Shown here: piece by piece, positions 2,849 through 35,783 of the stretch
Layout: each line of letters starts with the position of its first letter
Numbering within the stretch: the first letter of the stretch is position 1
From: Candidatus Zixiibacteriota bacterium
GTDB lineage: Bacteria > Zixibacteria > MSB-5A5 > GN15 > JAAZOE01
NCBI GenBank assembly: GCA_030668485.1
Contig: DAOUTW010000037.1
Location: forward strand, 1 to 42,623
DNA length: 42,623 bases
Direction of reading: 5' to 3'
Notes under the pieces: model-generated
What the model was told of the DNA's origin: nothing
The model's input: only the letters and a program-made list of their open reading frames with translations
Database searches by the model: none
Made by a program: the position numbers and the translations under genes

Positions 2849-4054
2849 ATGCGGACTTTGTATTTTCTGAGCCTGTTATTATTGCTACCCGCACTTGCAC
2901 CGGCTACCATCATTCATGTCCCAAGCGATTCGGCCACTATCCAGGCCGGCATCAACGGCGCTATAAATGGTGACACGGTCCTGGTCGCGGCAGGAACCTA
3001 CACCGGCGACGGCAACCGCGACATCCGATACGACGGCAAGGCCATCCTGGTTACCTCCGAGGCCGGCGCCGAATCGACCATTATTGATCTTCAGAAAATC
3101 CCCGGCTACCGGGCTTTTGTCATTGAATACTATGAGGACACAACCTCGATTCTCGACGGTTTTACCATCAAGGACAACGCCATCGATGGTTTTGGCGGCG
3201 TGGGTGGCGGCATCCTCTGCAAAGCCTCCCCCACCATCCGCAATTGTATCTTTACCGGATGCGTAGCCTGTGATGGGAGCGCCATTTGTGTCACGTCAAA
3301 CGGTACGCCTACCATTACCAATTGCACCTTCACCGGCAATCAAAGTGTCAGCGGAACTATTACCTTCTGGGGATCATATGGGACAATCATCAACTGCTCA
3401 TTCACCGATAATCATGGTAACCTGGGACATGTTCACTGCAGCGGCGATGTTGGGTACGGCGACTTTGTCGTCAAAAATTGCACCTTCGCCAATAATGGAC
3501 CCGGCGGATATTGCGGTGGTATCTATATGAGGAAATTTGCGTCTCTTTATGTCGAGAATTGTCTTTTCGCCTTCGGAACGGCATTAAGCGGTATATACTG
3601 TGAGGTTGAAAGCGGTGATATAGAAATCGTTGGTACCGATATTTATATCGCGCCCGGTTACAACAATTGGGACGGATGTATTGCGGAGTATGAAGGCATC
3701 AATGGTAACTTCAGCGCCGACCCTCTGTTTTGCGATGCCTCTAACGGCGATTATACCCTCAGCGCCCTCTCGCCCTGCACCCCGGCTCATAATTCGTCAG
3801 GAGAATATATTGGCGCCTGGCAGGTCGAGTGCGGCATTGTGTGCGGGGATGCCAATGGTGATTCGGGGACAAACGTCGCCGACGCTGTGTTCATGATTAA
3901 TTTTATTTTCAAGAATGGTCCCGAACCGGGACCGATTTGTTCCATGGATGCCAATGGCGACAGCAGCTCAAACGTTGGTGACGCTGTCTATATGATCAAT
4001 TATGTTTTCAACGGTGGTCCTCCGCCGCAAGCCGACTGTTGCCCGGGGTATTAA
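2849..4054 (+). CDS. Secreted right-handed beta-helix protein with C-terminal dockerin-like module
   Basis: The protein has 401 residues. Residues 1-19 are a signal peptide (hydrophobic Leu run ending ALAPA). The mature part starts IIHVPSDSATIQAGI, the entry motif of parallel beta-helix proteins, and continues with coil repeats of the type PTIRNCIFTG, PTITNCTFTG, TIINCSFTDN, VVKNCTFANN and YVENCLFAFG. Residues about 331-401 are two EF-hand-like units (DANGDSGTNVADAVFMINF and DANGDSSSNVGDAVYMINY), ending DCCPGY. The fold suggests carbohydrate or surface binding, but no pectate-lyase active site was recognised. GGGGAGGG upstream supports the start. It converges with the IPTL-CTERM-like gene. 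Confidence 0.85.
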   Translation: MRTLYFLSLLLLLPALAPATIIHVPSDSATIQAGINGAINGDTVLVAAGTYTGDGNRDIRYDGKAILVTSEAGAESTIIDLQKIPGYRAFVIEYYEDTTSILDGFTIKDNAIDGFGGVGGGILCKASPTIRNCIFTGCVACDGSAICVTSNGTPTITNCTFTGNQSVSGTITFWGSYGTIINCSFTDNHGNLGHVHCSGDVGYGDFVVKNCTFANNGPGGYCGGIYMRKFASLYVENCLFAFGTALSGIYCEVESGDIEIVGTDIYIAPGYNNWDGCIAEYEGINGNFSADPLFCDASNGDYTLSALSPCTPAHNSSGEYIGAWQVECGIVCGDANGDSGTNVADAVFMINFIFKNGPEPGPICSMDANGDSSSNVGDAVYMINYVFNGGPPPQADCCPGY

Positions 4055-8030: not shown

Positions 8031-8059
8031 TTGACAGCCACAGAAAATATAGCTACCAT
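8031..8059 (+). promoter_or_regulatory. Candidate sigma-70 promoter of the radical SAM peptide locus
   Basis: A perfect TTGACA (8031-8036) stands 17 bases before TACCAT (8054-8059). The predicted start near 8066 leaves a long leader that holds a 33-codon ORF and an intrinsic terminator before the precursor peptide gene. Confidence 0.5.
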
Positions 8060-8220: not shown

Positions 8221-8252
8221 CCGGGAGGGGATTATTCCCTCCGGACATTTTT
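8221..8252 (+). terminator. Intrinsic terminator or attenuator ahead of the precursor peptide
   Basis: CCGG-GAGGG pairs with CCCT-CCGG (8221-8229 with 8237-8244, one bulged G), followed by ACATTTTTA with five T at 8248-8252. It sits 40 bases before the peptide gene and after the promoter at 8031, so it either ends the leader ORF transcript or regulates read-through into the operon. Confidence 0.6.
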
Positions 8253-8291
8253 ATAAACCTCAACCGCCATTCCATGGAAGGAGGTGAGCAC

Positions 8292-8384
8292 GTGAAGTTT
8301 ATCGAAAAACCGCAGATGAAAAAGACCGATCGTCCGTGCCCTTGCTACAAGATGTTTTTCCCGATCATTTGTTCGGCAGACTAA
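8292..8384 (+). CDS. Candidate RiPP precursor peptide, 30 residues, Cys-rich core
   Basis: GTG at 8292 follows AAGGAGGTGA (8278-8287), a perfect ten-base complement of the 16S rRNA 3' end. The peptide has a leader-like part, KFIEKPQMKKTD (residues 2-13), then RPCPCYKMFFPIICSAD (14-30) with Cys16, Cys18 and Cys27. The leader recalls the YxxP-type recognition motif used by RiPP recognition elements (here IEKPQM). The next genes encode two paralogous SPASM radical SAM enzymes, the usual maturases that install thioether or C-C crosslinks. An in-frame ATG at 8274 would add six residues but has no ribosome site. No database identity is claimed; the role rests on size, Shine-Dalgarno, composition and neighbours. 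Confidence 0.7.
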   Translation: MKFIEKPQMKKTDRPCPCYKMFFPIICSAD

Positions 8385-8410
8385 ACACAAGGCACTAAGT
8401 CGAGGGAGTG

Positions 8411-8433
8411 CGTCGGGTCTTAACGGCCCGACG
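8411..8433 (+). promoter_or_regulatory. Hairpin between precursor and first maturase gene
   Basis: CGTCGGGTC (8411-8419) pairs with GGCCCGACG (8425-8433) across a five-base TTAAC loop; there is one G-T pair. No T-run follows, so it is more likely an RNA-stabilising or partial attenuation hairpin, as often seen between RiPP precursor and maturase genes. Confidence 0.55.
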
Positions 8434-8461
8434 TATTCCCAGCCATAAGCGAGCACTATTT

Positions 8462-9781
8462 ATGAAAAAATCACGATTTAATCACATAGTCACATTGGAT
8501 GATGGAACTGCGTTAATCTATAATTGCCTGACCGGCGCATTGGCGGAGATTGAATCTGAACAGCTTGCGCACGTCCGGCGACTTCTGGAATTCCCCGGGA
8601 ATAAAGATTCGGCGGCAGATCCGGAACTTTTGGAAAATCTGACCGAAGGCGGCTATCTGGTTACCGACGAGACCGATGAAGTTGCCGATTTATGGGCCGA
8701 AAGCCGGAGCCGCAGGCAGCAACTGGGGACTCTGGCATTGACTATCGCCCCCACCCTGGCCTGCAATTTTGCCTGCGATTATTGTTTTATCAGTCAATCT
8801 TCTGTCCGGATGAATGAATCGACTCAACAGTCACTAATCGACTATGTCGATAACAGACTGGATGGAATCGCCCGGCTGAGGATCAGTTGGTTTGGCGGAG
8901 AGCCGACTCTTTGTTTCCCAACGATAGAAAAGGTCCAGGCGGAGTTGAACGAATTGACCTCTCGGCGTCAGGTTGAGATTGGCCCGATTTCCATGGTTTC
9001 AAACGGTTACTTACTCAACCGCCAGATGGCCCGGCGCATGAAGTCGCTGGGATTTGGCAGAGTTCAAATAACTCTTGACGGACCGGAAGAGGTTCATGAT
9101 TCACGTCGCAAGCTTCACAATGGGAAGGGCACATTTCGACAGATTCTGGCGAATCTCGAAGAGATCACCGACTTGTTGAAAGTTCGATTACGGGTCAATC
9201 TCGACCGGGACAATCTGAAATCCGCAATCGAGGTGGTGCGAATTCTGGAGCGGCATAAAATACTGCCAAAGGTCTCGGTAACTTTTGCCCAGGTGCAAAC
9301 GACTAGCGATGTATGCGCCAGTATCCGGGGTCGATGCTTTAATGAGGAAGAGTTTTCCGGAGGCTTGATCGAATTGTATCAGCAGTTGATTGAACAGGGG
9401 ATCTATCAGGTCGAAAATCCCAAGTCATTCGATGCGGTTTTTTGCGGGGCCCTAACCGAAAACTGCATTGCTGTGTCACCGACCGGTCATCTGTTTCGCT
9501 GTCGCGATTCTTTATCGCTCGACCCGGAAAAATCGACAGGGGACATCTTTGGCACACCGCCAACGGAGGCCCAGAGGCGGAACCTGCAGAAGTTTCAATT
9601 GTGGGATCCGTTTGAGTTTGATGAATGCCGTGAATGTAATATTCTGCCGATCTGTCTGGGTGGCTGTCCATTACAGAGTAGGGATGATTCGAAAAAACAA
9701 AAAGGAACCTGCTCACCGTGGAAACATAACCTTGAAGAGATGCTTAAGCTGAAATACCAATGCAAAACCGAAAAGAATTAG
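8462..9781 (+). CDS. Radical SAM/SPASM peptide maturase 1
   Basis: The protein has 439 residues from ATG 8462, chosen because it aligns with the start of the next paralogue. A GTG at 8408 would extend through the hairpin. Residues 1-90 form an N-terminal domain (FNHIVTLDDGTALIYN...GALAEI...GGYLV) typical of peptide-modifying SPASM enzymes and probably used for leader binding. The radical SAM cluster is CNFACDYC (Cys101, 105, 108), with WFGGEPTL following. The C-terminal SPASM domain has C(x13)G(x4)C, then CRECNILPICLGGC and a final C before SPWK: seven Cys for two auxiliary 4Fe-4S clusters. The expected role is crosslinking of the 30-residue peptide encoded 78 bases upstream. It is about as long as its paralogue and collinear with it. 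Confidence 0.9.
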   Translation: MKKSRFNHIVTLDDGTALIYNCLTGALAEIESEQLAHVRRLLEFPGNKDSAADPELLENLTEGGYLVTDETDEVADLWAESRSRRQQLGTLALTIAPTLACNFACDYCFISQSSVRMNESTQQSLIDYVDNRLDGIARLRISWFGGEPTLCFPTIEKVQAELNELTSRRQVEIGPISMVSNGYLLNRQMARRMKSLGFGRVQITLDGPEEVHDSRRKLHNGKGTFRQILANLEEITDLLKVRLRVNLDRDNLKSAIEVVRILERHKILPKVSVTFAQVQTTSDVCASIRGRCFNEEEFSGGLIELYQQLIEQGIYQVENPKSFDAVFCGALTENCIAVSPTGHLFRCRDSLSLDPEKSTGDIFGTPPTEAQRRNLQKFQLWDPFEFDECRECNILPICLGGCPLQSRDDSKKQKGTCSPWKHNLEEMLKLKYQCKTEKN

Positions 9782-9794
9782 GATACGACTGCAT

Positions 9795-11123
9795 ATGAAA
9801 CCGTCAAGATACAATTTTTTCTTTGAAGTGGATGGTGGTGTTACTCTGGCCTTCAACAGTAACAGCGGCGCGCTGGCGGAAATCGAAAAAGAACACCTGC
9901 CCCGCATTCAGAATCTCCTGAAACATCCGGATCAGGCTGAGTCCGACATGGATAAAGAGTTCGTTGACAGCCTGCGCGGCGGCGGATACCTGGTCGGTGA
10001 TGCCATCGACGAAATTTCCTGCCTGCAGGTCGATGCTAATACTTATCGGTTATCCAGCGCCACGCTATCTTTGACAATTGCCCCGACCCTGGCATGCAAC
10101 TTCAGTTGCGATTATTGTTATGAAAGTCAGTCAGGCCTAAGAATGTCGGAACAGACTCAAGAGGCTCTTTTGGAGTTCGCCGACCGGCGGCTGGGGCAAT
10201 CATCCAAACTTTTGATCTGCTGGTTCGGTGGCGAGCCGACGCTTTGTTTGCCGGTCATCGAGCGACTGCAGGGAGGCCTTCTCGAATTAGCGAATAAGCA
10301 CCAGTCTCAGGTCGAGCCGACCTCGATAATATCGAATGGTTATCTACTCGACGCTGCTATGGCGCGACGAATGAAAGAGATCGGCATCTCCGAGGTTCAG
10401 ATTACGATCGACGGCCCCCCTGAAGTCCATGATCGCAGAAGGAAACTGCGCAACGGCAAGGGCACATTTAGCCGGATTCTCGATAATGTAACGGATATCT
10501 GCGATATCCTGGAGGTCGGGATTCGAATCAACGTCGACCGAGAGAACACCGACGACGCCTGCCGGGTCGTCGAAATATTCCGGGACCGGCAGATTCTTCA
10601 TAAAGTCAAAATTTATTTTGCCCAGGTGCAATCGTCGGGGATCGCCTGCGCCGATATCCGTGACCGCTGTTTCGGCCAGGAGGAGTTTTCAAAATGGCAG
10701 GTAAAACTCTACAAGACATTAATCGACCGGGGAATTTATCATGTCGATTATCCGGAAGTGAGCGGTGGAATTACATGCGGCTCCGTTTCCAATAATTCCT
10801 TCGTCGTCTCACCAACCGGTCATTTATTCAAATGCTGGGAAGAGCTTTCCCTCGATCCGGGAAAATCGGTTGGAGATATTTTCTCATCGGAACTGACCGA
10901 CGAACAAAAGGCCAATATTGACAAATTCAAGAATTGGAATCCATTCAAACTGTCCGAATGCCGGGAATGCGAGATCCTTCCGGTCTGTATGGGCGGCTGC
11001 CCGATTCACAGTATAAACGCCGGACACCCCGACCGGGGCTCCTGTTCGCCGTGGAAATTCAACCTCCGCGAGATGCTGGAACTCCGCCATCAATGCGAAC
11101 AAGCCCGCGAGGCCAAAGTATAG
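9795..11123 (+). CDS. Radical SAM/SPASM peptide maturase 2 (paralogue of the preceding gene)
   Basis: The protein has 442 residues and begins 13 bases after the previous stop. It aligns from end to end with maturase 1: a GALAEIE N-terminal domain, LTIAPTLACNFSCDYCYE (Cys101, 105, 108), CWFGGEPTLC, SNGYLL, a DGPPEVHDRRRKL segment, C(x13)G(x4)C, CRECEILPVCMGGC and a final CSPWK. The third cluster Cys is followed by YE, the common form, where maturase 1 has FI. Identity is well over half by eye, so this is a tandem duplication that has diverged. The two may act on different residues of the same peptide or form a heterodimer. The ribosome site is weak (GGA), which suggests translational coupling. 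Confidence 0.9.
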   Translation: MKPSRYNFFFEVDGGVTLAFNSNSGALAEIEKEHLPRIQNLLKHPDQAESDMDKEFVDSLRGGGYLVGDAIDEISCLQVDANTYRLSSATLSLTIAPTLACNFSCDYCYESQSGLRMSEQTQEALLEFADRRLGQSSKLLICWFGGEPTLCLPVIERLQGGLLELANKHQSQVEPTSIISNGYLLDAAMARRMKEIGISEVQITIDGPPEVHDRRRKLRNGKGTFSRILDNVTDICDILEVGIRINVDRENTDDACRVVEIFRDRQILHKVKIYFAQVQSSGIACADIRDRCFGQEEFSKWQVKLYKTLIDRGIYHVDYPEVSGGITCGSVSNNSFVVSPTGHLFKCWEELSLDPGKSVGDIFSSELTDEQKANIDKFKNWNPFKLSECRECEILPVCMGGCPIHSINAGHPDRGSCSPWKFNLREMLELRHQCEQAREAKV

Positions 11124-11148
11124 CGATCATCATAAGAGGATTTTGAGC

Positions 11149-12186
11149 ATGAATCGACAACAGAAAAGCGGCCCCCCGGTGATCGGATGGGAAATAACGG
11201 CGCAATGCAATCTTACCTGTCCCCACTGCTATAGCGCGGCGGCCAAAAGACCTCACAACGAAATGTCGATTGCTGAATGCAAGCTGGTGATCGAAGCGAT
11301 GTCACGTATCGGCGTAGGAACGATCGGCTGGACCGGCGGTGAGCCGTTGTTATGCAATGACCTCGAGGAATTGATCGTATATGCCAAAGAACGCGGGATC
11401 AAATCCAGCATTACGACCAATGGAGTCCTGCTGGACGAAACCCGGACCTTGAGTTTGAAAGAAGCCGGAATAAGTTCGATTCAAATCAGCATAGACGGAT
11501 CGACTCCGGAAGTTCACCATCGCATGCGCCGCACGACCGATGAGGAATACTCGAAAATTCTCGAAGCGATTCAATTATGCAAAAAGCATAATATAAAGCT
11601 CTTTATCGCGACTCTGGTAGGGCAGGAAAATCTGGACGACGCTCGAGAAATGATCAATATGGTTAAGCGGGAGGGGTTGGATCGAATCAGGCTTTGTTGC
11701 TTTACTCCTGTTGGCCGCGGTAAAGGTTCCAAAATCAAAGATCGACTGGCTTTTGATGAGCGAATGCGTGATCTTTATAAATTCGCCCAGGAGGCACAAC
11801 TGGACGGGTCGATTATGCCGATGTTCGATCCTCCTTTCGGCCCTGTTCCCCCCCGATTCGATTTTCATGAATGTATCGCCGGCAAAGAGACTTTTTATCT
11901 TAAAAGCAACGGCGATTTATTCCCGTGTACTTCTCTTCTGAACCGGGAATTTCGGGTCGGCAATATCCGCCAGCGCCCGCTGGAAGAACTCTGGAATGAT
12001 CCCGCCATGACAGCGATAGCTAATTTTCCACGAGAAAAAATACAGGGGCCCTGCCGGGATTGTGATAATTTTGCCCGGTGTCATGGCGCCTGCCGAGGGG
12101 TTACTTTTGCCCATACCGGAGACCTGACGGCCTCTTTCCCCGTTTGCCTCTACCAGGTTGCCCTGAATACGGTTGTCGAGAAATAA
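11149..12186 (+). CDS. Radical SAM/SPASM protein 3 (PqqE/NirJ-like)
   Basis: The protein has 345 residues from ATG 11149, which has AAGAGGA eight bases upstream; an upstream TTG at 11143 is less likely. The cluster motif CNLTCPHC is at Cys20, 24 and 27, followed by GWTGGEPLL. The C-terminal SPASM domain has C(x12)G(x4)C, CRDCDNFARCHGAC and a final Cys near PVCLYQ. It lacks the N-terminal domain of maturases 1 and 2 and belongs to the PqqE/NirJ/AhbC-like group, which includes both peptide and haem modifiers. It begins 25 bases after maturase 2 on the same strand, so it is probably the last gene of the operon, for a second modification step or an accessory role. Confidence 0.88.
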   Translation: MNRQQKSGPPVIGWEITAQCNLTCPHCYSAAAKRPHNEMSIAECKLVIEAMSRIGVGTIGWTGGEPLLCNDLEELIVYAKERGIKSSITTNGVLLDETRTLSLKEAGISSIQISIDGSTPEVHHRMRRTTDEEYSKILEAIQLCKKHNIKLFIATLVGQENLDDAREMINMVKREGLDRIRLCCFTPVGRGKGSKIKDRLAFDERMRDLYKFAQEAQLDGSIMPMFDPPFGPVPPRFDFHECIAGKETFYLKSNGDLFPCTSLLNREFRVGNIRQRPLEELWNDPAMTAIANFPREKIQGPCRDCDNFARCHGACRGVTFAHTGDLTASFPVCLYQVALNTVVEK

Positions 12187-17042: not shown

Positions 17043-19880
17043 TTAGGGGCAACAACCTGCCACTGGCGGCGGTCCGCCGCTAAAGACATAAGCGATCAAA
17101 TAAACGGCATCGGCCACATTGACATCGCCATCGCCGTTGGAATCGCCGACACAATACGGGTCAGGTCCCGGACCGCCTTTGAAGACATAGTTTATGATGT
17201 AAACCGCATCGGCGACATTGGTATCGCCATCGCCGTTGGCATCGCCGCAAACGTAGGGCGCTAATACTTCCACGCTTAGCGGTTTTTCGGCGCTGCTTCC
17301 GATTCCGTCATCAACGCGGGCAGTAAATTCAATCAGACCACTGCTTGTCGGAGTGCCGGATAGCAGGCCCGCTGGAGAAAGCGTCAGACCTGTTCCCGAT
17401 AAATCGCCGTCACGGTCGCTCCAGATTTTGGAACCGGTGCCGCCTGAAGATATCAACTGCTCGCTGTATGGATCGCCAGCAAAGACCGAAGCCAGAAGAT
17501 CGGTGGTAATTAGCAAGGCATCGTTTACCGTGAAGGTAAACAGCTTTTCATCGACATTGACATCCTCATCCGTGACCTCGGCCGTAAACGAAATGTTTCC
17601 GGATGCCATGGGCGCTCCCGATAGCATGCCGGTAGTCGAAAGCGACAGACCGCTGCCGGTCAGGTCGCCGTATTTATCGGACCAGGTATACTGGCCGACT
17701 CCGCCGGTGGCAACCAGTTGTTCGGTAAAGGCGAATCCGGCTGTCCATTCGGGCAATGATTCGGTTGCAATATCCAATGGCGCGGGTCCCTGATCGCAAC
17801 CATAAGCATTGACAACGACATCGTCGATGTTCCAGCCGCAATAGACCCAGCCGGCATCGGTGGATCCCATCACCCAACGCAAGTAAACAGTTGACTGATT
17901 ATCGGCAATTGCAGAAATATCATATTCCAACTGCACCCAGGCATCATCGGCGATTTCTGAAGAGTTTTCCCAGATGGTGGTCCAGTCGACACCGTTATTG
18001 CTGACTCGAATATAGGCATGATCATATATAGGCTGCTCCACGCCGAGCCAGCGCCAGAATGACAAACGACTGCCGAACAACCCGGAACAATCGATGGCCG
18101 GGCTGGTCAGAAATCTTTCCGACATGTCGTTGGTGTAATCGCCACTTAAATTATAGCCATAGACATTGGTACTGTTGTATCCGCCGACCGGGTCAGGGCC
18201 GCCATACTGTCCTCCACCTCCGGTGGGACTTCCCCTCTCCCAGAGTCCGCCGGAAACGGTCCAGCTTTTGTCGGTTTCAAAATCGTCGGAGAACACCACC
18301 GAATCGGTAGTAGTCGGGAAAGCGATATAGGGCGATCCCGGATCAGGATCATAGATAATTCCCTCTGTAGCTTCTTCGGCGCTGACATAAAACGAGGCAT
18401 ACTCGCCGCATGTCAAACCCGGAAGGGTTGCCATATAGCGATCCCCCGACAATTGTGTCATCGCCTGTGACTGGGTGACCCCGCCGCTGATGCTATAATG
18501 GATCTGCCCTGTTCCCGGTACCGGGACGCCGCCAAAGAATCCGCTGACGACGACTTCGAACATGGTCGATTGTTCGGGAGTGAGCATCGACGGAACATCA
18601 TCGGGGTAACCGAAGGCCAGCGAAGGCCCCGGAATATAATTCTGAGAAGCCGAATAGGCTGTGGCCAGCGAAGCTTTAACCATTTTGGTCATATATGGAA
18701 AATCCATATAGGTGGTGCTGTCCTGGTATGAATGATAAACGTCGGAGAAGATATATTCATGGACAAAGGTTGCTTTGTAGCCTAACTGGGTGAACGGATA
18801 ATGATCCGATCCGCCGGAATTTCCGCTGAGGATTCCGGTCAGGCCGACCAGGGAATCGCCCAGATCCTGCCAGAGGATGCTGTAGGTTTGGTCGGTACCA
18901 TGATACAGCTTGGCCTGAGTGGTATTTTCGTGAAAGGCGATCATATCGAGGTTGAGCATGTAGACAATGCTATCACCGCGGGCATAGGCCTCATCGGCGT
19001 AATGATAGGAGCCATGCAACCCCTGTTCTTCGGCGTCAAATAGAGCAAACACAAAGGTCAAGTCAGTATCATAGTCCTTGAGGATACGCGCCATTTCCAG
19101 AACAGCGGCGCTTCCCGAACCGTTATCATCGGCTCCGGGTGAACCGGTGACGGCGTCGCGATGAGCGCCGATAATGACATGGTGTTCTGTCAGATGAGTG
19201 CCGACTTTGTAGGCAAGCACATTCATGCAATTGGAGGAAGCGGCGTAAAAGCTGTCGATAACAATCGAATCATAGCCGAATTCATCAAACTTGGCTGCAA
19301 TCCAGTCTCGCGAGTTGTAATTGGAGACGGTGCCGGTGTACCGGCTGCCATAAGCCTGCAGAGCTTCAGTGTAGGACAGCAGAGAATCCTGATTTACCTG
19401 ATCAATCAATTCCTGCAAACCACTGACACGACTACCATCGGCGAGTTTGAGAGCCTGCACAGGTGTATATTCTATCTGTAATCGCTCGTTCCTGACCGGC
19501 ATCAATGACAGCGATTCAAGACCTGTCGAACGCATACTCTCATCAATGCGATACAGCCTGAAGTTTCCTTCTTCGAACAGAAGTTGATGCTTTTCGGCAT
19601 TGACTGCATCGAGGCGGAGATCGATGGCCAGGTCGCCCTTGTCGATATCGGTAGCAATCGGCTCAATCGAAATCTTGGCCGCCGCCAGATCCTGTGCTAC
19701 ACGGGGATCGGCAGTTATTAAATAGCCATTATTGAGCCGGGCAATCGGTTCAACACCGGCGTCGATTAATAATTTGGCATCATGATCGCTTTTTACCTCG
19801 ACCCGATACAAATCGGCGCCGAATGCGGCGTTACTGATGACAAAAATTAAAAGACAGCCGAAAAGACAAAGCTTTGACAT
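17043..19880 (-). CDS. Secreted M28 metallopeptidase with lectin-like, Ig-like and dockerin-like modules
   Basis: The protein has 945 residues. A signal peptide (1-21) is followed by a propeptide-like region and an M28 aminopeptidase domain at about 180-410. Zinc motifs are IIGAHRDAV, SPGADDNGSGSAA, DAEEQGLHGS, MLNLDMIAF and VYHSYQDS. Next comes a MAM/jelly-roll-like region (about 530-695, DDFETDKSW ... WNIDDVVV), two He_PIG/Ig-like repeats (about 700-870, each with GLxLSxxGxLSGxPxxSG) and a dockerin-like pair (877-945) ending GCCP. It is probably an extracellular aminopeptidase anchored through the C-terminus. In the first SPGADDNG motif GAHRD has Arg where many members have His-Tyr/Leu-Asp; HxD is formed by His and Asp around Arg and is intact. 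Confidence 0.93.
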   Translation of the reverse strand: MSKLCLFGCLLIFVISNAAFGADLYRVEVKSDHDAKLLIDAGVEPIARLNNGYLITADPRVAQDLAAAKISIEPIATDIDKGDLAIDLRLDAVNAEKHQLLFEEGNFRLYRIDESMRSTGLESLSLMPVRNERLQIEYTPVQALKLADGSRVSGLQELIDQVNQDSLLSYTEALQAYGSRYTGTVSNYNSRDWIAAKFDEFGYDSIVIDSFYAASSNCMNVLAYKVGTHLTEHHVIIGAHRDAVTGSPGADDNGSGSAAVLEMARILKDYDTDLTFVFALFDAEEQGLHGSYHYADEAYARGDSIVYMLNLDMIAFHENTTQAKLYHGTDQTYSILWQDLGDSLVGLTGILSGNSGGSDHYPFTQLGYKATFVHEYIFSDVYHSYQDSTTYMDFPYMTKMVKASLATAYSASQNYIPGPSLAFGYPDDVPSMLTPEQSTMFEVVVSGFFGGVPVPGTGQIHYSISGGVTQSQAMTQLSGDRYMATLPGLTCGEYASFYVSAEEATEGIIYDPDPGSPYIAFPTTTDSVVFSDDFETDKSWTVSGGLWERGSPTGGGGQYGGPDPVGGYNSTNVYGYNLSGDYTNDMSERFLTSPAIDCSGLFGSRLSFWRWLGVEQPIYDHAYIRVSNNGVDWTTIWENSSEIADDAWVQLEYDISAIADNQSTVYLRWVMGSTDAGWVYCGWNIDDVVVNAYGCDQGPAPLDIATESLPEWTAGFAFTEQLVATGGVGQYTWSDKYGDLTGSGLSLSTTGMLSGAPMASGNISFTAEVTDEDVNVDEKLFTFTVNDALLITTDLLASVFAGDPYSEQLISSGGTGSKIWSDRDGDLSGTGLTLSPAGLLSGTPTSSGLIEFTARVDDGIGSSAEKPLSVEVLAPYVCGDANGDGDTNVADAVYIINYVFKGGPGPDPYCVGDSNGDGDVNVADAVYLIAYVFSGGPPPVAGCCP

Positions 19881-20064: not shown

Positions 20065-22728
20065 CTACTGACAACACCCCTCCACCGGCGCCGGGCCGCC
20101 GAGGAAAACATAGGCGATGAGATAGACGGCATCGCCGACATTGACACCTCCATCGCCATTGGCGTCACCGGCACAAACCGGATCGGGAGCCGGACCGCCC
20201 TTGAAGACATAATTGATAATGTAAACGGCATCGGCGACGTTGACGCTTCCATCGCCGTTGGCATCGCCGCAGACGGCATGCGGTGTTTCATCCAACGTCC
20301 TGAAAGCATACACGAGGCCGTCGGACCCGAAGGTTATGCAGACAATATTAACCCGGTCATTGCAGTTTACATCGCCGACAAGAATATGCATAACATCGTC
20401 GGCAGTGCTCTGACTCCATTCGACAGCACCGGTGGCTCCGTCCACGACATATACATTTTGATCGTCGGAACCGATAATCCCTTCATTCTCGCCGTCGTTA
20501 TCGACATCATAAACCATACAGTGGTTCACTTCGGCTCCGGTCGGGAATTCCCACAATATACGACCGTCGTCACCACTTAGGGCGATGGCGGCATCGGTAC
20601 CTCCCAGGTACGGAACCAGCACATCGGGTATTTTATCTCCATTCAAATCACCGCCGCCCATATCATGAATATTAGATTCCACCTGGATCGGCTGTGTCCA
20701 AATAGCCGTTTGAGTGGCGCCGTCGATCATAATCACCTGTTTGTCGAAAGGCGCCAGGCCGGCGGCTACGTCCATAACTCCATCTTCATTGACATCCATC
20801 GCCTCAACATGTGCAACCGCTTCCGGTGTCGTGTAGCGCCATAATACGCTTCCATCAAACCCATCCAGTACCGTGACATTATTTCCATCCGGACCGCCGG
20901 CAACCGCCACGACAACATCCAGGGGACCGGCGTCATTCATCTGGACCAGATCAACCTCATTGACCTCTCCCCCGACATATTGCGACCAAAGCTCTATACC
21001 GTTTTCGCCTCGGATGGCATAGACCATATTATCGTCGGCTCCGGCAATGACATCGACATTTCCATCATCATTGAGATCGGCGGCATCGAGGCACTTGCGG
21101 TACAATTGATCGGTGGGAGCGGTAAACTGCCACATCACCGACCCGTTTTCACCGTCTATGGCCGTTACCATATCATCACCACCGGCAACGGCAGCATCGT
21201 CAAAACCGTCATTGTCGAAATCCCCTGCGGTGGCGGCGTACAGATTCGCTGTTCCCTGCCAGACCCATAACTCGGTGCCGTCGTTACCGTCCATAGCAAT
21301 GGCGTTATCTCCGACCGAGGCGGCGGAGACGACATCCAGACAACCATCGCCGTTGAAATCGCCAAGAGCGATGGAGTTGCCGTACTGGCCGATATCATGT
21401 TCCCACAGTATCGGCGATTGGACAGTCATCAAAGCCCACACACCCTTACCCGGATCGGGTGGCGTTCCTATGTAATCGGCTCCGCCTCCAGCGGCGATAT
21501 CGAAGACTTCATCGCCGTTAAAATCGGCGACGCCGACACCGCGCATGGAGCCGTTGACCGAATAATAATACTGGAAGGTACCGTCGAGGCCGTTGAGGAC
21601 CTCAATGCGGTCGCTTCCGGCACACACGACATTCATATCCTTGTCGCCTAGAACATCCCCGAAAGCGATATCCCGGGTATGCCCGACCAAGGTATCGGAG
21701 ACCCAGACAAGGGAAGAGCCATTAAGCGCATATACTACACGCTCGCCGAGATAGGTTCCAACTATTAATTCGCGCGACCCGTCTTCGTCGAGATCCTGGA
21801 GATACAGCAGGATATTGCCGTTGGAATGATCGACCGCACCGATATTATATGACCATTCCAGAACGCCGTCGACGGCGTTACGGGCCTGTATTTCGCCGTG
21901 ATCGTCACCGTATATTACGCCAAAGATAGCTTCCGGTTCGGGATCGCCGTCGATGTTATCGATAATGACATCCATGACCAGATACGGCACGATAGAATCC
22001 CAGATAAACGATCCGTCGGTCCCATCGAAAACACCCATGTGATTATCGAAATTGGCCAGGTATTCGTTGCCGAAACCTATATCATCAATCCCATCATCGT
22101 TAACATCTCCGCCCTCGACGGCATTAACCCACATGCCATCGACATGATGACTCCACAGATGAGCTCCCGTTTGTCCATCGACGGCATAAACGGAATCGTC
22201 GAAGGAACCGGCGGCAACATCCATATACTCATCACCATTGAGGTCGGCAACCGTCACCGTCTGGATCGTAGCGCTGATAGGGAAGGTCCACAGGGCTGTG
22301 CCATCGACGCCGTTGATGGCATGAATTTGGCCGTCGGGAGTAGGCGATGATTGGTATGATGCTCCCGCGACCGCATCCATGACGCCGTCATTATTCAAAT
22401 CGCCGATAGTCATGGATCGGACGCCATCCTGGAGCAGATAGGTCCAGAGGGTATCGCCGGTTTCGCCGTCCAGAGCATAAACCCTGGAAGGTTCGCCGTA
22501 ATAGGTCATATCGTATTCACCGGCGATAACATCCTTGATGCCGTCTCCATTGAGGTCGGCCGTTTCCACCTTTCCGACGGTCAGGCTCGAATCATAAATC
22601 CATATCGGATCACCGGAATATCCATCGGCCCGATAGAGGGCGTACCCAGCGGAAAGAGTCATCAAGGTTATCACTGCAATAATGATAACGACAACTTTAC
22701 GGTTATTTTGTGGGGAATGAACCATCAT
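20065..22728 (-). CDS. Exported FG-GAP/PQQ-like beta-propeller protein with dockerin-like module
   Basis: The protein has 887 residues. A hydrophobic N-terminal segment (about 11-30) serves as signal or anchor. The body is built from repeats that combine an FG-GAP calcium loop (DLNGDGIKDVIAG, DLNNDGVMDAVAG, DFNGDGCLDVVSA and others) with a PQQ-like blade (YALDGETGDTLWTY, AINGVDGTALWTF). About 15 such units give two propellers. Residues 816-887 are a dockerin-like pair ending GCCQ. No enzyme motif was seen; a surface or binding role is likely. AAGGAG precedes two adjacent ATG codons at 22728 and 22725; either may be used. Confidence 0.9.
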   Translation of the reverse strand: MMVHSPQNNRKVVVIIIAVITLMTLSAGYALYRADGYSGDPIWIYDSSLTVGKVETADLNGDGIKDVIAGEYDMTYYGEPSRVYALDGETGDTLWTYLLQDGVRSMTIGDLNNDGVMDAVAGASYQSSPTPDGQIHAINGVDGTALWTFPISATIQTVTVADLNGDEYMDVAAGSFDDSVYAVDGQTGAHLWSHHVDGMWVNAVEGGDVNDDGIDDIGFGNEYLANFDNHMGVFDGTDGSFIWDSIVPYLVMDVIIDNIDGDPEPEAIFGVIYGDDHGEIQARNAVDGVLEWSYNIGAVDHSNGNILLYLQDLDEDGSRELIVGTYLGERVVYALNGSSLVWVSDTLVGHTRDIAFGDVLGDKDMNVVCAGSDRIEVLNGLDGTFQYYYSVNGSMRGVGVADFNGDEVFDIAAGGGADYIGTPPDPGKGVWALMTVQSPILWEHDIGQYGNSIALGDFNGDGCLDVVSAASVGDNAIAMDGNDGTELWVWQGTANLYAATAGDFDNDGFDDAAVAGGDDMVTAIDGENGSVMWQFTAPTDQLYRKCLDAADLNDDGNVDVIAGADDNMVYAIRGENGIELWSQYVGGEVNEVDLVQMNDAGPLDVVVAVAGGPDGNNVTVLDGFDGSVLWRYTTPEAVAHVEAMDVNEDGVMDVAAGLAPFDKQVIMIDGATQTAIWTQPIQVESNIHDMGGGDLNGDKIPDVLVPYLGGTDAAIALSGDDGRILWEFPTGAEVNHCMVYDVDNDGENEGIIGSDDQNVYVVDGATGAVEWSQSTADDVMHILVGDVNCNDRVNIVCITFGSDGLVYAFRTLDETPHAVCGDANGDGSVNVADAVYIINYVFKGGPAPDPVCAGDANGDGGVNVGDAVYLIAYVFLGGPAPVEGCCQ

Positions 22729-23052: not shown

Positions 23053-26000
23053 TTACGGACAGCATCCGGGTAGCGGTGCCGGACCGCCTTTGAAGACATA
23101 GGCGATCAGATAAACAGCGTCCCCGACATTGCAACTACCGTCGCCATTGGCATCGCCTCTGCAAACCGGGACAGGCGCCGGACCACCCTTGAAGACATAA
23201 CTAATGACATAGACGGCATCGCCGACATTTACGCTTCCGTCGCTATTGGCGTCCCCGCAAACGATCGGTCCGGTCGGTTCGGTCACTTGCATATGATTGT
23301 TGACGTTGACGCCGACAATAACCTGATTCGTGCCGGAAGGCCAGTCGATTATCAGGGAATCGATCCAGGTTTTACTTCCGACCCCGAATTCGGCTGTCAG
23401 GGAATGCATCGAGCAGTATCCGGAGCCGCTGGTTACTTCGCGGATTTGTGACACCCCGCCGGCTGAAATCCGAATACGGGCGCCAATGCCGCATTTGTTG
23501 GAGGCCACACCGATTAGATCGACCTTCAGCCAGTTATTATCATCGCCGATTTCATTTCTATACATCCTGCAGTTTTGCCACAGACCGGCATTCGGCACAT
23601 AGATGTCCAAGTCTCCATCGTTGTCATAGTCGCCCCAGGCAAAACCCATGCCGTACCCGGTATCAGCAAGGACCGGGGAGGTGGCATCGGTAAATATCGT
23701 GGGCGCCTCATTGCGGAACAGTTTATTGGAGCCACTGCTGTTGGTAACGTACAAATCGAGATCGCCATCGTTGTCATAGTCGGCCCAACCGGCGCTCAAG
23801 CCCCAGCCGGCATCATTCAGGACCGGAGTTCCGGGATCAACGAAAGTACCGCCCTGGTTTTCAAACATCCTGTTGGCCTGACCACCGTTCTTAACGAGGT
23901 AAATATCAAGATCGCCATCGCCATCATAATCGCCCCAGGCCACGCCGGTACCTTCGCCGATGTCGGCAAGAAGCGGGGAGGTCACATCGGTGAATGTTCC
24001 TCCGCCGTCATTGCGATAGAGATGATTCGCCTCACCATAATTGCAGGCCAGGTAGAGGTCCATATCGCCATCATCATCATAATCGGCCCAAGCCGAACCG
24101 GCGCTGCTGCCGGCATAATTAACCGGTGATCCAACGATATCGGTCCAAGACCCGCCGCCATCATTGCGGAAAAGCCGGTTGGGTCCGGCGTACGTGGTCA
24201 CATAGAGATCGATATCGCCGTCATTATCGTAATCTACCCAGTTGACCTGCTGGTTCATACTGGCCGGATCGTCGATAGGCGAAGCACTGACGTTGACGAA
24301 CACCCCGCCACCGTCATTACGATAGAGGTCATTGGGACTCGCACTATTGGCCAGGTATAAATCAAGGTCGCCATCGTTGTCATAATCACCCCAGGCGACG
24401 CCGTATCCGATGCCATTATCATCAACCGGAGACGCGGAGACATCGGTGAACGAAGGCGAGTCATTGCGGAAGAGCTTGTTGGGATTGTTATTACTATTGG
24501 AGACATATAAATCCAAGGATCCATTGTTATCATAATCTCCCCAGGCAGCGCCAATGGAATGCTGACTAAAGATATCGACCGGTGGGGCGGTGACATCGGT
24601 CCACTCTGCCTTCAACAACGCGAAAGCGGCCTGCAGATTCGGCCTCGGGCCGATATTACCGAAGGGCGGAGTAATCTGTGCGGTCCCGGATGTGACCAGG
24701 TAATTTCTCAGCATTGGCGGCGTAAGACTTGACGGAGGCACCCCCTGAGCCATCCAGTAACCAACGCAGCAGGCAACCGCTCCGGCCACGCATGGCGAGG
24801 CGCTGGAGGTACCGTCAAAGGAGTTGGTATACATCCAATAGTAGCCATAGGTGCTGTCGAGGTCGCCGTATGCGGTGGTAGCAACATTTTCTCCCCACCC
24901 CTGAAGATCATAGCGGGTGCCATAACTGGACCATGAAATCCGCTCAAGATCGCCTTCGGCCCAAGTCCCACCGGTATAGGCACCACCGGCGCCGACGATT
25001 ATCGCCCCGGAATGTTGCGGATACCAAGTGAGCACATCGGTATTATAGCCGCTGTTGAGCGTTGGCGCGCCGCCGTTGCCGCCGGCTTCAACGACATGGA
25101 TGCCTGCAGCAATTGCGGCCCCAATGGTGGAAAAGACACCATTGAAATTTTGCGCATTAGGATAATAGCAAGTCCACCATTCAATTGGAATATAATCGGT
25201 ATGGGCCGTATTGGGGTCATTGTACCCCCATTGATGTTCCAAAAGAATAACGTCACCCGCCGACATGGCAGTAGAGGCCATGATTATTGCGGCCGGGACA
25301 TCCCAAACGGTATCGGGTGGGGGGCCAGGATAGATGAAGTAAGAAGCGCATGTTAACAAGGTGGCATTTTTGCAAATCCCGGTCGTCCCGATGCCATTAT
25401 CATCGGCCGCCAGAACACCGGCAACAGCCGTGCCATGAAAAGCCCGTTGGGCCGGGAATGGGTCAAGGATTGGATAGGTATTAATCTGCGAACCGGGAAG
25501 CTGGCTGATATCGTTGTGGTTATACCAGCTATACTCGATATCGCACACTGTGACGCCAGCGCCGTCCCCTCCCAGCTGCCCCCAGGCATAGATTATATCC
25601 AGTCCAGTCGGCGTGCTGCTGGCCGGCTGCAAGTAACCTTGCAGGGATTGGTAATCGGGAGGCTGCACGGCTGGCGGCGGAGTCGGAAGCGGCATCGGCG
25701 CGGCATTGATGATGCCGGGCAGAGCTTTCAATTCTTCACATAAAGACCAGATATCATTTCCTTTGGGAATACGCAGGCGATATAAATTATTGAGGTTATA
25801 GACGGGTTGACCGGTATTGCGTTCCCCCCTGAGGTGCAACTCATCCAGTTTTTCCTCAGAGACATCACCTACCCGACGCCAGGTACAAGGAGTAACCTTG
25901 GCCAGCACCTCGTTCACGCCGTTTAGGGCCTTGGAGGCCGACAGGTCAACCGGTTTGCCATCTCGGAGACGTACTTCCGAATCCCAGGAGAACATTACCT

Positions 26001-26130
26001 CGATCAGATTATCTTTGCAGGGATAGGGCGGCTTGTCAGGGCCGTTAGCTTGCACGACTGCAACTTCCAGTCCGAAGAGCAAAATAAAAATGGCTATTAA
26101 AAAGTAGAGAGAACCTTTCTTCGTGCTCAT
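23053..26130 (-). CDS. Secreted S8 subtilase with seven FG-GAP repeats, UnbV-type and dockerin-like modules
   Basis: The protein has 1025 residues. A signal peptide (about 1-28) and an inhibitor-like propeptide precede the subtilase domain: Asp in VTVCDIEYSW (about 195), His in AFHGTAVAG (about 233), oxyanion Asn in EAGGNGGAP and Ser in GTSSASPCVAGA (about 443). Seven VCBS/FG-GAP repeats follow (about 513-857), each WGDYDNDGDLDLY-like and ending in a LFRNDGG-like turn, enough for a seven-bladed propeller. Then comes an ASPIC/UnbV domain (about 858-947, GIGARIRI, IIDWPSG) and a dockerin-like pair ending GCCP. It is an extracellular protease with a large binding platform. All three catalytic residues are present. 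Confidence 0.95.
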   Translation of the reverse strand: MSTKKGSLYFLIAIFILLFGLEVAVVQANGPDKPPYPCKDNLIEVMFSWDSEVRLRDGKPVDLSASKALNGVNEVLAKVTPCTWRRVGDVSEEKLDELHLRGERNTGQPVYNLNNLYRLRIPKGNDIWSLCEELKALPGIINAAPMPLPTPPPAVQPPDYQSLQGYLQPASSTPTGLDIIYAWGQLGGDGAGVTVCDIEYSWYNHNDISQLPGSQINTYPILDPFPAQRAFHGTAVAGVLAADDNGIGTTGICKNATLLTCASYFIYPGPPPDTVWDVPAAIIMASTAMSAGDVILLEHQWGYNDPNTAHTDYIPIEWWTCYYPNAQNFNGVFSTIGAAIAAGIHVVEAGGNGGAPTLNSGYNTDVLTWYPQHSGAIIVGAGGAYTGGTWAEGDLERISWSSYGTRYDLQGWGENVATTAYGDLDSTYGYYWMYTNSFDGTSSASPCVAGAVACCVGYWMAQGVPPSSLTPPMLRNYLVTSGTAQITPPFGNIGPRPNLQAAFALLKAEWTDVTAPPVDIFSQHSIGAAWGDYDNNGSLDLYVSNSNNNPNKLFRNDSPSFTDVSASPVDDNGIGYGVAWGDYDNDGDLDLYLANSASPNDLYRNDGGGVFVNVSASPIDDPASMNQQVNWVDYDNDGDIDLYVTTYAGPNRLFRNDGGGSWTDIVGSPVNYAGSSAGSAWADYDDDGDMDLYLACNYGEANHLYRNDGGGTFTDVTSPLLADIGEGTGVAWGDYDGDGDLDIYLVKNGGQANRMFENQGGTFVDPGTPVLNDAGWGLSAGWADYDNDGDLDLYVTNSSGSNKLFRNEAPTIFTDATSPVLADTGYGMGFAWGDYDNDGDLDIYVPNAGLWQNCRMYRNEIGDDNNWLKVDLIGVASNKCGIGARIRISAGGVSQIREVTSGSGYCSMHSLTAEFGVGSKTWIDSLIIDWPSGTNQVIVGVNVNNHMQVTEPTGPIVCGDANSDGSVNVGDAVYVISYVFKGGPAPVPVCRGDANGDGSCNVGDAVYLIAYVFKGGPAPLPGCCP

Positions 26131-34991: not shown

Positions 34992-35783
34992 TTATGGACA
35001 ATCATCATTGGCAGGGTCCGTCGGTGGAGGTCCACCTTTGAAAATCCAGTTAATTAGATAAACCGCATCACCCACGTTACCATTCCCATCACCATTGGCG
35101 TCTCCACCGGCTCTACTTTTAAGGGAAACGAAGTCAACGCACACATCCCTCTCTGGCCAACTACCACCAAATTCATAGAATCCCAGCATAATTTTGGTAA
35201 TGGGTTTTGAGGGAGGCAATATCAGGCTATCTTTGACAATTCCATCCACAAGTGCAACCCATTTTTCTCCAGTGCGACGCATCTCCATCATGCCATTTAT
35301 AGTTGGGTATTCAGAATCAAATCCAGAAGTATCTCCGTAAATCCAATTCCCTTCTGCAATAAACGTCACCCCCCCCATGCCAATACCTGCTTGAGGCTCA
35401 AACCAAGCCATAGTAAATACTTCCTCATCGGCATCGTTGAGGCAATATATCGCAACTCCGACCATTTGACCTGAAATATCAGATAGGCAGATTGGCTTGA
35501 AAGATATGGAGATGTGCTCACTTGGTTGAATAGGACGACAGAGGGCAGTCTCAATGAAATTATATTTGGGATCATTGGGGCTTCCCCAATCGGAGACATA
35601 AACCCGGCCTAAACTATCTGTTTCGAGAACAAATCCCGGATTATTGTTAGAGCCATATTGCCACGTGATGCCATTGTTAAAGTCCTCGTGCAACAGAGTA
35701 GGTTGGCCAGCAACCAAAGAGTTCAAACCAACCAGGAATGTAACGAAGAGCATATACGCACATACTCCCTTCATTCCGGACAT
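34992..35783 (-). CDS. Small secreted protein with a single dockerin-like repeat
   Basis: The protein has 263 residues. A signal peptide ends near LVAGQ (about 27). The body, residues 30-225, is predicted to be a concanavalin-like beta sandwich (HEDFNNGITW at the start, VCVDFVSLKS at the end), a lectin/LamG-like outline, but the family was not identified. The C-terminus has one EF-hand unit, GDANGDGNGNVGDAVYLINW, where the other four have two, and ends DDCP. GGGAGGTTACC precedes the start. It lies upstream of the Por-sorted gene on the same strand. Confidence 0.8.
   Translation of the reverse strand: MSGMKGVCAYMLFVTFLVGLNSLVAGQPTLLHEDFNNGITWQYGSNNNPGFVLETDSLGRVYVSDWGSPNDPKYNFIETALCRPIQPSEHISISFKPICLSDISGQMVGVAIYCLNDADEEVFTMAWFEPQAGIGMGGVTFIAEGNWIYGDTSGFDSEYPTINGMMEMRRTGEKWVALVDGIVKDSLILPPSKPITKIMLGFYEFGGSWPERDVCVDFVSLKSRAGGDANGDGNGNVGDAVYLINWIFKGGPPPTDPANDDCP

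Follow-up and report, generated by a model that had tools for sequence, protein, structure and literature searches.

The analysed window, a stretch of 42,623 nucleotides from a Candidatus Zixiibacteriota bacterium (contig DAOUTW010000037.1), encodes a peptide of 30 amino acids followed on the same strand by three radical SAM/SPASM enzymes, here called rA, rB and rC (Table 1). There is very little doubt that these genes make up a RiPP pathway, a reading that is strongly supported: a short precursor is conserved beside modifying enzymes, as in RiPP operons in general, and it has a conserved leader, a cysteine-containing core and homologues under selection. The initial annotation, which had proposed the peptide as a RiPP precursor next to radical SAM maturases, is borne out in this respect. 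The sections below document the gene set and its conservation, the selection acting on the relatives' peptides, the folds of the enzymes and their cluster-binding cysteines.

Table 1 Features of the peptide and radical SAM locus (positions in the window)
Feature	Position	Strand	Evidence
Promoter-like site (TTGACA, 17 nt, TACCAT)	8031..8059	+	Consensus match only, 10/12 bases
Ribosome site AAGGAGGTGA of the peptide gene	8278..8287	+	Read in sequence; equivalents precede nearly all homologous peptides
Precursor peptide gene, 30 aa	8292..8384	+	Profile built on relatives' peptides, E 5e-10; homologue present in every rB-rC locus with enough sequence
Stable 16-bp hairpin directly 3' of the peptide gene, no T-run	8404..8440	+	MFE of 78-nt stretch -33.4, z -4.8 (mononucleotide shuffles)
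rA: RRE-SPASM radical SAM maturase, 439 aa, rB paralogue	8462..9781	+	Pfam Radical_SAM 1e-20; TIGR04334 290 bits (cut-off 600); catalytic and SPASM cysteines all kept
rB: RRE-SPASM radical SAM maturase, 442 aa	9795..11123	+	TIGR04334 312 bits (cut-off 600); AlphaFold pLDDT 92.5; best fold match CteB, Z 27.5, residues 4-433
rC: SPASM radical SAM enzyme without RRE, PqqE/SkfB/MftC-like	11149..12186	+	Pfam Radical_SAM 1e-30, SPASM 1e-12; PDB profile SkfB 5e-36, PqqE 7e-30

The precursor peptide gene

The peptide frame starts with a GTG codon at 8292 and runs for 30 codons (MKFIEKPQMKKTDRPCPCYKMFFPIICSAD) to a stop codon at 8382-8384. The frame and the perfect ribosome site in front of it are present as first described (8278-8384). 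Its product has a leader-like N-terminus, MKFIEKP..., followed by the core RPCPCYKMFFPIICSAD. An alternative in-frame ATG at 8274, giving 36 amino acids, was considered and rejected. Since the ribosome site falls within this longer frame, and since the peptides of relatives begin with M[KR][FIL]I, the GTG is taken to be the start. A profile built from 12 peptides of relatives, from which the window was excluded, was run on all short-frame starts in the window (1,608). Here, the peptide frame was the sole significant match, and the next, unrelated frame had an E-value of 0.8. A genome search with the window peptide as query returned no match except itself, and the family libraries contained no match to it. 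Precursors of this kind, mostly 27-50 amino acids long, are shorter than gene callers usually accept, so that they would as a rule escape annotation.

A further clue against a chance frame is that short frames with cysteines and a strong ribosome site cluster near rB on the coding strand. Because an earlier scan had selected for the N-terminal motif and so could not be used to judge it, all frames with at least two cysteines and a strong ribosome site were counted, with the opposite strand and regions further away as controls. Near rB (17 loci, 30.6 kb), 26 such frames occur on the coding strand and none on the opposite one; 8 were counted in 269 kb further away. The N-terminal motif is present in 18 of the 26 near frames, in none on the opposite strand and in none of the 8 distant ones, counts that are supportive rather than independent proof, since the motif was defined after some of the peptides were known. 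In the wider rB family outside Zixibacteria (68 loci), 11/28 near, 0/5 opposite-strand and 1/54 distant frames had the motif. This enrichment near rB relatives in other phyla suggests that the motif is common to a wider Clo7bot-like family. The strongest candidate for a recognised leader is this N-terminal motif.

Homologous loci and gene order

Loci of relatives were collected by searching 60 related genomes for rB and 132 genomes of the phylum for rC. Genes of the rC type occur in 19 of the 132 phylum genomes (21 loci, all E < 1e-110), with an rB-type gene beside them in every phylum locus except L153, which lies at a contig end; the rB-rC pair is kept in homologous loci of these 19 genomes and of one Acidobacteria bin. 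These loci were searched for a short frame, the check that the initial annotation had proposed, and a peptide was found in all 17 phylum loci with enough sequence and also in the Acidobacteria bin (L055), at a position that varies. Each sufficiently covered rB-rC locus has one to four of them.

Where rB and rC are contiguous, the peptide lies upstream (the window, L032, L033 and L151); three further loci share the contiguous layout on contigs too short for the peptide search (L034, L042 and L152). Where a gap separates the two genes, the peptides lie inside it (L035-L041, L043, L044, L154, L155, L055 and L057), and L050 has peptides in both places. A scan limited to the region upstream of rB missed most of the relatives' peptides, which the rB-rC gap contained. 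Thus, the proposed position upstream of the enzymes applies to the window and three other loci, but in most relatives the peptide, often present in more than one copy, is found in the rB-rC gap. Among the loci examined, only the window has the tandem rA/rB pair, and what is conserved is a single rB-type enzyme together with rC. Clustering of the flanking proteins revealed no transporter, protease, immunity gene or downstream sigma factor conserved beside the set, which agrees with the earlier remark that a linked protease and transporter are missing. Elsewhere in the window, five regions (2849-4054, 17043-19880, 20065-22728, 23053-26130 and 34992-35783) encode secreted-looking proteins with terminal dockerin-like repeats (CGDANGDGxxNVADAVYxINYVFKGGPxP).

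In the phylogeny, the Zixibacteria rB sequences of this system and the Acidobacteria copy form one group (support = 0.73), in which the window branches with the loci of the upstream type (support = 0.99). The grouping of rA with rB, which bears on a possible duplication within this lineage, has a support of only 0.42. The Acidobacteria locus (CALMJU010000060.1, 6001-8552) has an rB-rC pair and a peptide ending in ...LILPPYLIVSPY, and suggests a transfer between phyla or a binning error. A second, paralogous system of the same genomes forms a separate group (support = 0.99). It is found in the genome of the window and in related ones (L049, at G000:C128:18839-20131 and neighbours; also L045-L048, L051, L062, L070 and L082) and consists of an RRE-SPASM enzyme and another SPASM enzyme whose nearest model is TIGR03913, below cut-off; several loci also include a B12-binding radical SAM protein and an ABC transporter. 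Its peptides are of the type MIYLIDP...C...PLYGVPP.

The peptide family and its selection

The leader-like N-terminus and the cysteine-containing core that had been noticed in the window are conserved among the peptides of relatives. Most of these begin with M[KR][FIL]I..P and many share the core KPCPCYxxxFxILPPW (examples are MKLIENPKGITPRKPCPCYRRLFLILPPGPK in L035, MKFLEKPQDSVKKPCPCLNRLFLILPPW in L036, MRIVQKSKETRKPCPCYKIMFYILPPW in L037 and L038, MKFIEKPKTAQAKPCPCYNRLFYILPPNPVK in L043 and MRIIETARQAQSKPCPCYKMLFLILPPW in L040). Copies within one locus, three in L036 and four in L044, keep the N-terminus constant and vary in the remainder, and a constant N-terminus with a varying core in multiple copies is the usual pattern of RiPP precursors. 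The upstream-type peptides other than that of the window have ...IIC or ...PVC near their end; in the window peptide, a gap-type CPCY occurs together with an upstream-type IIC. The number of cysteines ranges from one to five, every peptide found having at least one, and the tail I-x-P-P is kept about as well as the CxC pair. Among the three residues proposed earlier as cross-link sites, Cys16 and Cys18 form this widely kept pair, but only peptides of the upstream-type subgroup have a counterpart of Cys27.

The loci L037 and L038 belong to two congeneric species. They encode the same pair of peptides, while the DNA of these differs at 13/168 positions and the surrounding spacer is heavily diverged. 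One of the differences is a TTG/ATG change of start codon, and since the other 12, all internal substitutions, are synonymous, the frames of these relatives are under purifying selection. The window frame has no close relative, so that selection on it can be argued through homology only. Relatives without the peptide, or a decayed frame, had been named as observations that would speak against the annotation; the search instead returned the peptide in all sufficiently covered loci and purifying selection in relatives.

The radical SAM enzymes

The three enzymes were first described as two collinear SPASM paralogues and a third SPASM enzyme of another type on the same strand, and they are present as such. 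The paralogues rA and rB are 51% identical. Both rA and rC start with ATG; an in-frame TTG precedes the latter at 11143. The radical SAM domain is certain in all three according to Pfam, and each has the CxxxCxxC motif and the full seven-cysteine SPASM pattern (C328-x13-G-x4-C347, C389xxC392x5C398x3C402 and C417 for rA/rB in the rB alignment numbering; C242, C260, C302xxC305x5C311x3C315 and C333 in rC). Two further cysteines of rB, C285 and C292, lie outside the SPASM pattern and are invariant within the rB sequences of this system, not across the wider family.

All curated models are matched below their cut-offs. The top ones for rA and rB are TIGR04334, the Clo7bot maturase model (Table 1), and TIGR04463 (288 and 311 bits, cut-off 525); the PapB ranthipeptide model NF047865 gives 136 and 127 bits (cut-off 340) and the SCIFF maturase model TIGR03974 gives 77-78 bits (cut-off 425). 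There are many matches to rC, up to 170 bits and none near its own cut-off, including the PqqE (131 bits, cut-off 381) and MftC (155 bits, cut-off 265) models.

The AlphaFold model of rB consists of an N-terminal domain of three strands and three helices of the RRE type, a radical SAM barrel and a SPASM domain. Its full-length fold matches are CteB (391 residues, rmsd 4.8) and TigE (Z 23.5, 388 residues, rmsd 4.0); the sequence profile also places CteB as the nearest solved structure (4e-40). Since the N-terminal domain of the rB model aligns with the N-terminus of CteB, it is predicted to be an RRE. The earlier statement that there is no separate recognition protein stands insofar as none is encoded separately, but a recognition element appears to exist, fused as the N-terminal domain of rA/rB. 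With 345 residues, rC has no space for an RRE ahead of its radical SAM core, and its model, of moderate confidence (pLDDT 73), matches BlsE, SuiB, SkfB and PqqE at Z 22-25. A PqqD-family partner (PF05402) was sought in the whole genome with no match, a result to be read knowing that PF05402 overlooks many RREs (PMC7470986).

A proposed pathway

A compact RiPP operon working in the steps that follow is, as a whole, a highly probable reading. The peptide would be made in excess over the enzymes, owing to its strong ribosome site and to the stable hairpin past its stop codon. Its N-terminal M-K-F-I-x-x-P would act as the leader and bind the RRE at the N-terminus of rA/rB, as the domain model and the conserved N-terminus suggest. 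The seven-cysteine SPASM enzyme rA/rB would then join the cysteines of the CxC pair to carbons of nearby residues, most likely as thioethers, comparable to the CteB/PapB-type ranthipeptides. Ranthipeptide thioethers run from Cys to a non-alpha carbon, those of sactipeptides to an alpha carbon. Thioethers are the likeliest chemistry, with about an even chance of being right; this assignment draws on the relatedness to CteB and PapB, and the transfer is one from distant homology, since rA and rB reach no curated maturase family and rB is about 20% identical to CteB. Lacking an RRE of its own, rC would dock on the complex of rA/rB with the peptide and modify the same peptide. That rB and rC act jointly on this substrate is probable, and a complex of the two is proposed because of their constant pairing, the missing RRE of rC and the precedent of thuricin CD, whose two radical SAM enzymes TrnC and TrnD work as one complex (PMC12093266). 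The target of rC might be the hydrophobic tail, FxILPP in most relatives and FFPIIC in the window, a suggestion made tentatively and with slightly more doubt than the chemistry of rB. The removal of the leader and any export would be carried out by products encoded elsewhere. Among the points that weigh against the scheme are the lack of a conserved transporter, protease or immunity gene beside the set, the variable number of cysteines per peptide and the fact that a sequence alone cannot reveal the chemistry.

Alternative explanations

A RiPP pathway with a different chemistry is the most serious competitor, somewhat doubtful but with a considerable share of the probability. In that case, rB and rC would make C-C or C-O cross-links or rings, or they would act on the tail by epimerisation or decarboxylation, leaving the cysteines free, for instance for metal binding. 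Of the two structures that match the rB fold over its full length, TigE (8vpo) is not known to be a thioether enzyme; the nearest relatives of rC (SkfB, PqqE, MftC and BlsE) differ in their reactions; the second peptide copy of L036 has a single cysteine, and the similar conservation of the I-x-P-P tail and the CxC pair points the same way. Nevertheless, at least one cysteine is found in every peptide, the closest solved structure to rB is a thioether maturase (CteB) and the PapB model does match rA and rB, albeit below its cut-off. Moreover, the CX13GX4C pattern of the rA/rB SPASM domain fits an auxiliary cluster I coordinated by three cysteines, which we take to be the arrangement of Cys-binding thioether maturases.

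A pathway to a peptide-derived redox cofactor of the PQQ or mycofactocin kind, with rC as the counterpart of PqqE or MftC, is improbable. The matches of rC to both models and to the PqqE structure over nearly its full length are consistent with it, as are a core unusually well conserved between genera and the lack of a linked transporter or immunity gene. Yet, a cofactor precursor would not be expected in several divergent copies per genome, every cofactor model is far below its cut-off, no dedicated oxidoreductase is linked and the whole-genome search with PF05402 found no PqqD-family protein.

The RNA around the peptide gene bears on a third possibility. Comparable hairpins (z of -2 or lower, by the same shuffles) follow 18 of the 28 homologous peptides, with unrelated stem sequences, and a hairpin without a T-run after the precursor is seen in the window and in most of the loci L032-L054. 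The hairpin at 8404-8440 may be a stabilising or processing element that raises the precursor over the enzyme. A search of Rfam around the peptide gene matched no known element. Between the promoter-like site at 8031 and the peptide gene there is also a terminator-like hairpin with a T-run (8224-8242), which could be an attenuator or a product of chance. That the short frame is a regulatory leader peptide (a translation-coupled attenuator) of enzyme genes with another substrate is very improbable, for although the frame precedes the enzymes in the window and is followed by one strong hairpin and preceded by the terminator-like one, the peptides of most relatives occupy the rB-rC gap, where up to four differing copies share an N-terminus and vary elsewhere, which is hard to reconcile with attenuation, the rB model includes a recognition domain of the RiPP type and no leader RNA family is matched.

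Relation to known systems

The RiPP pathway proposed here resembles several described ones. TIGR04334 is the best full-length curated match of both rA and rB, and in the loci of the wider family the maturase is accompanied by short cysteine-containing peptides whose N-terminus is of the hydrophobic-x-Pro kind (M[KE][YM][IV][VI].P type), which recalls Clo7bot. However, rA and rB score about half of the cut-off of that model, the Clo7bot peptide model TIGR04333 has no match to the window peptide at E 1 (one relative reaches E 1.2), the cores are Cys-poor, and, among the loci examined, a close rC (at least 45%) was seen next to rB relatives only in Zixibacteria and one Acidobacteria bin. The CteA/CteB thermocellin (SCIFF) and PapB freyrasin ranthipeptide systems share the succession of RRE, radical SAM and SPASM domains, and CteB is closest to rB by sequence profile and by fold. 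Contrary to SCIFF, with six cysteines in about 45 residues, the window peptide has three in 30, and the peptides of this family are without the fixed-spacing Asp/Glu or Thr acceptor pattern of ranthipeptides.

Thuricin CD likewise combines two radical SAM/SPASM enzymes and short cysteine-containing peptides in one operon (PMC12093266), but in the present operon one of the two partners is PqqE/SkfB-like and has no RRE, the precursors are unrelated and there are no adjacent export or immunity genes. With PqqE, MftC and SkfB, rC shares the fold and the seven-cysteine SPASM domain, along with the profile matches to the SkfB and PqqE structures; it differs in its low scores against the PqqE and MftC models, in the RRE-bearing second enzyme that adjoins it and in the missing PqqD partner.

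A search of the literature by title found no relevant paper on RiPPs of Zixibacteria, and searches for Clo7bot and geopeptide returned nothing. Radical SAM RiPP pathways are already known. Nevertheless, since no curated family is reached at its cut-off and no description was found in the literature searched, the combination of an RRE-SPASM enzyme, an RRE-less SPASM enzyme and mostly Cys-poor precursors of 27-50 amino acids with a conserved hydrophobic tail and no linked transporter is very probably undescribed so far. A bolder and rather unlikely interpretation is that it represents a separate RiPP class with hardly any members outside one uncultured phylum. The RRE-bearing SPASM enzyme and its RRE-less PqqE/SkfB-like partner would then jointly build an as yet undescribed structure on the small, strongly conserved KPCPCYxxxFxILPPW core, for an intracellular role (signal, metal carrier or cofactor) and not as an antibiotic.

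What is surprising is the chemistry and not that such a pathway exists. Zixibacteria are uncultured, and the operon offers complete small sets, a precursor and two enzymes, together with many natural variants of the precursor. Since these sets are small and complete, the reaction of each enzyme, and how the RRE-less partner shares the leader-binding enzyme, would be testable in E. coli.
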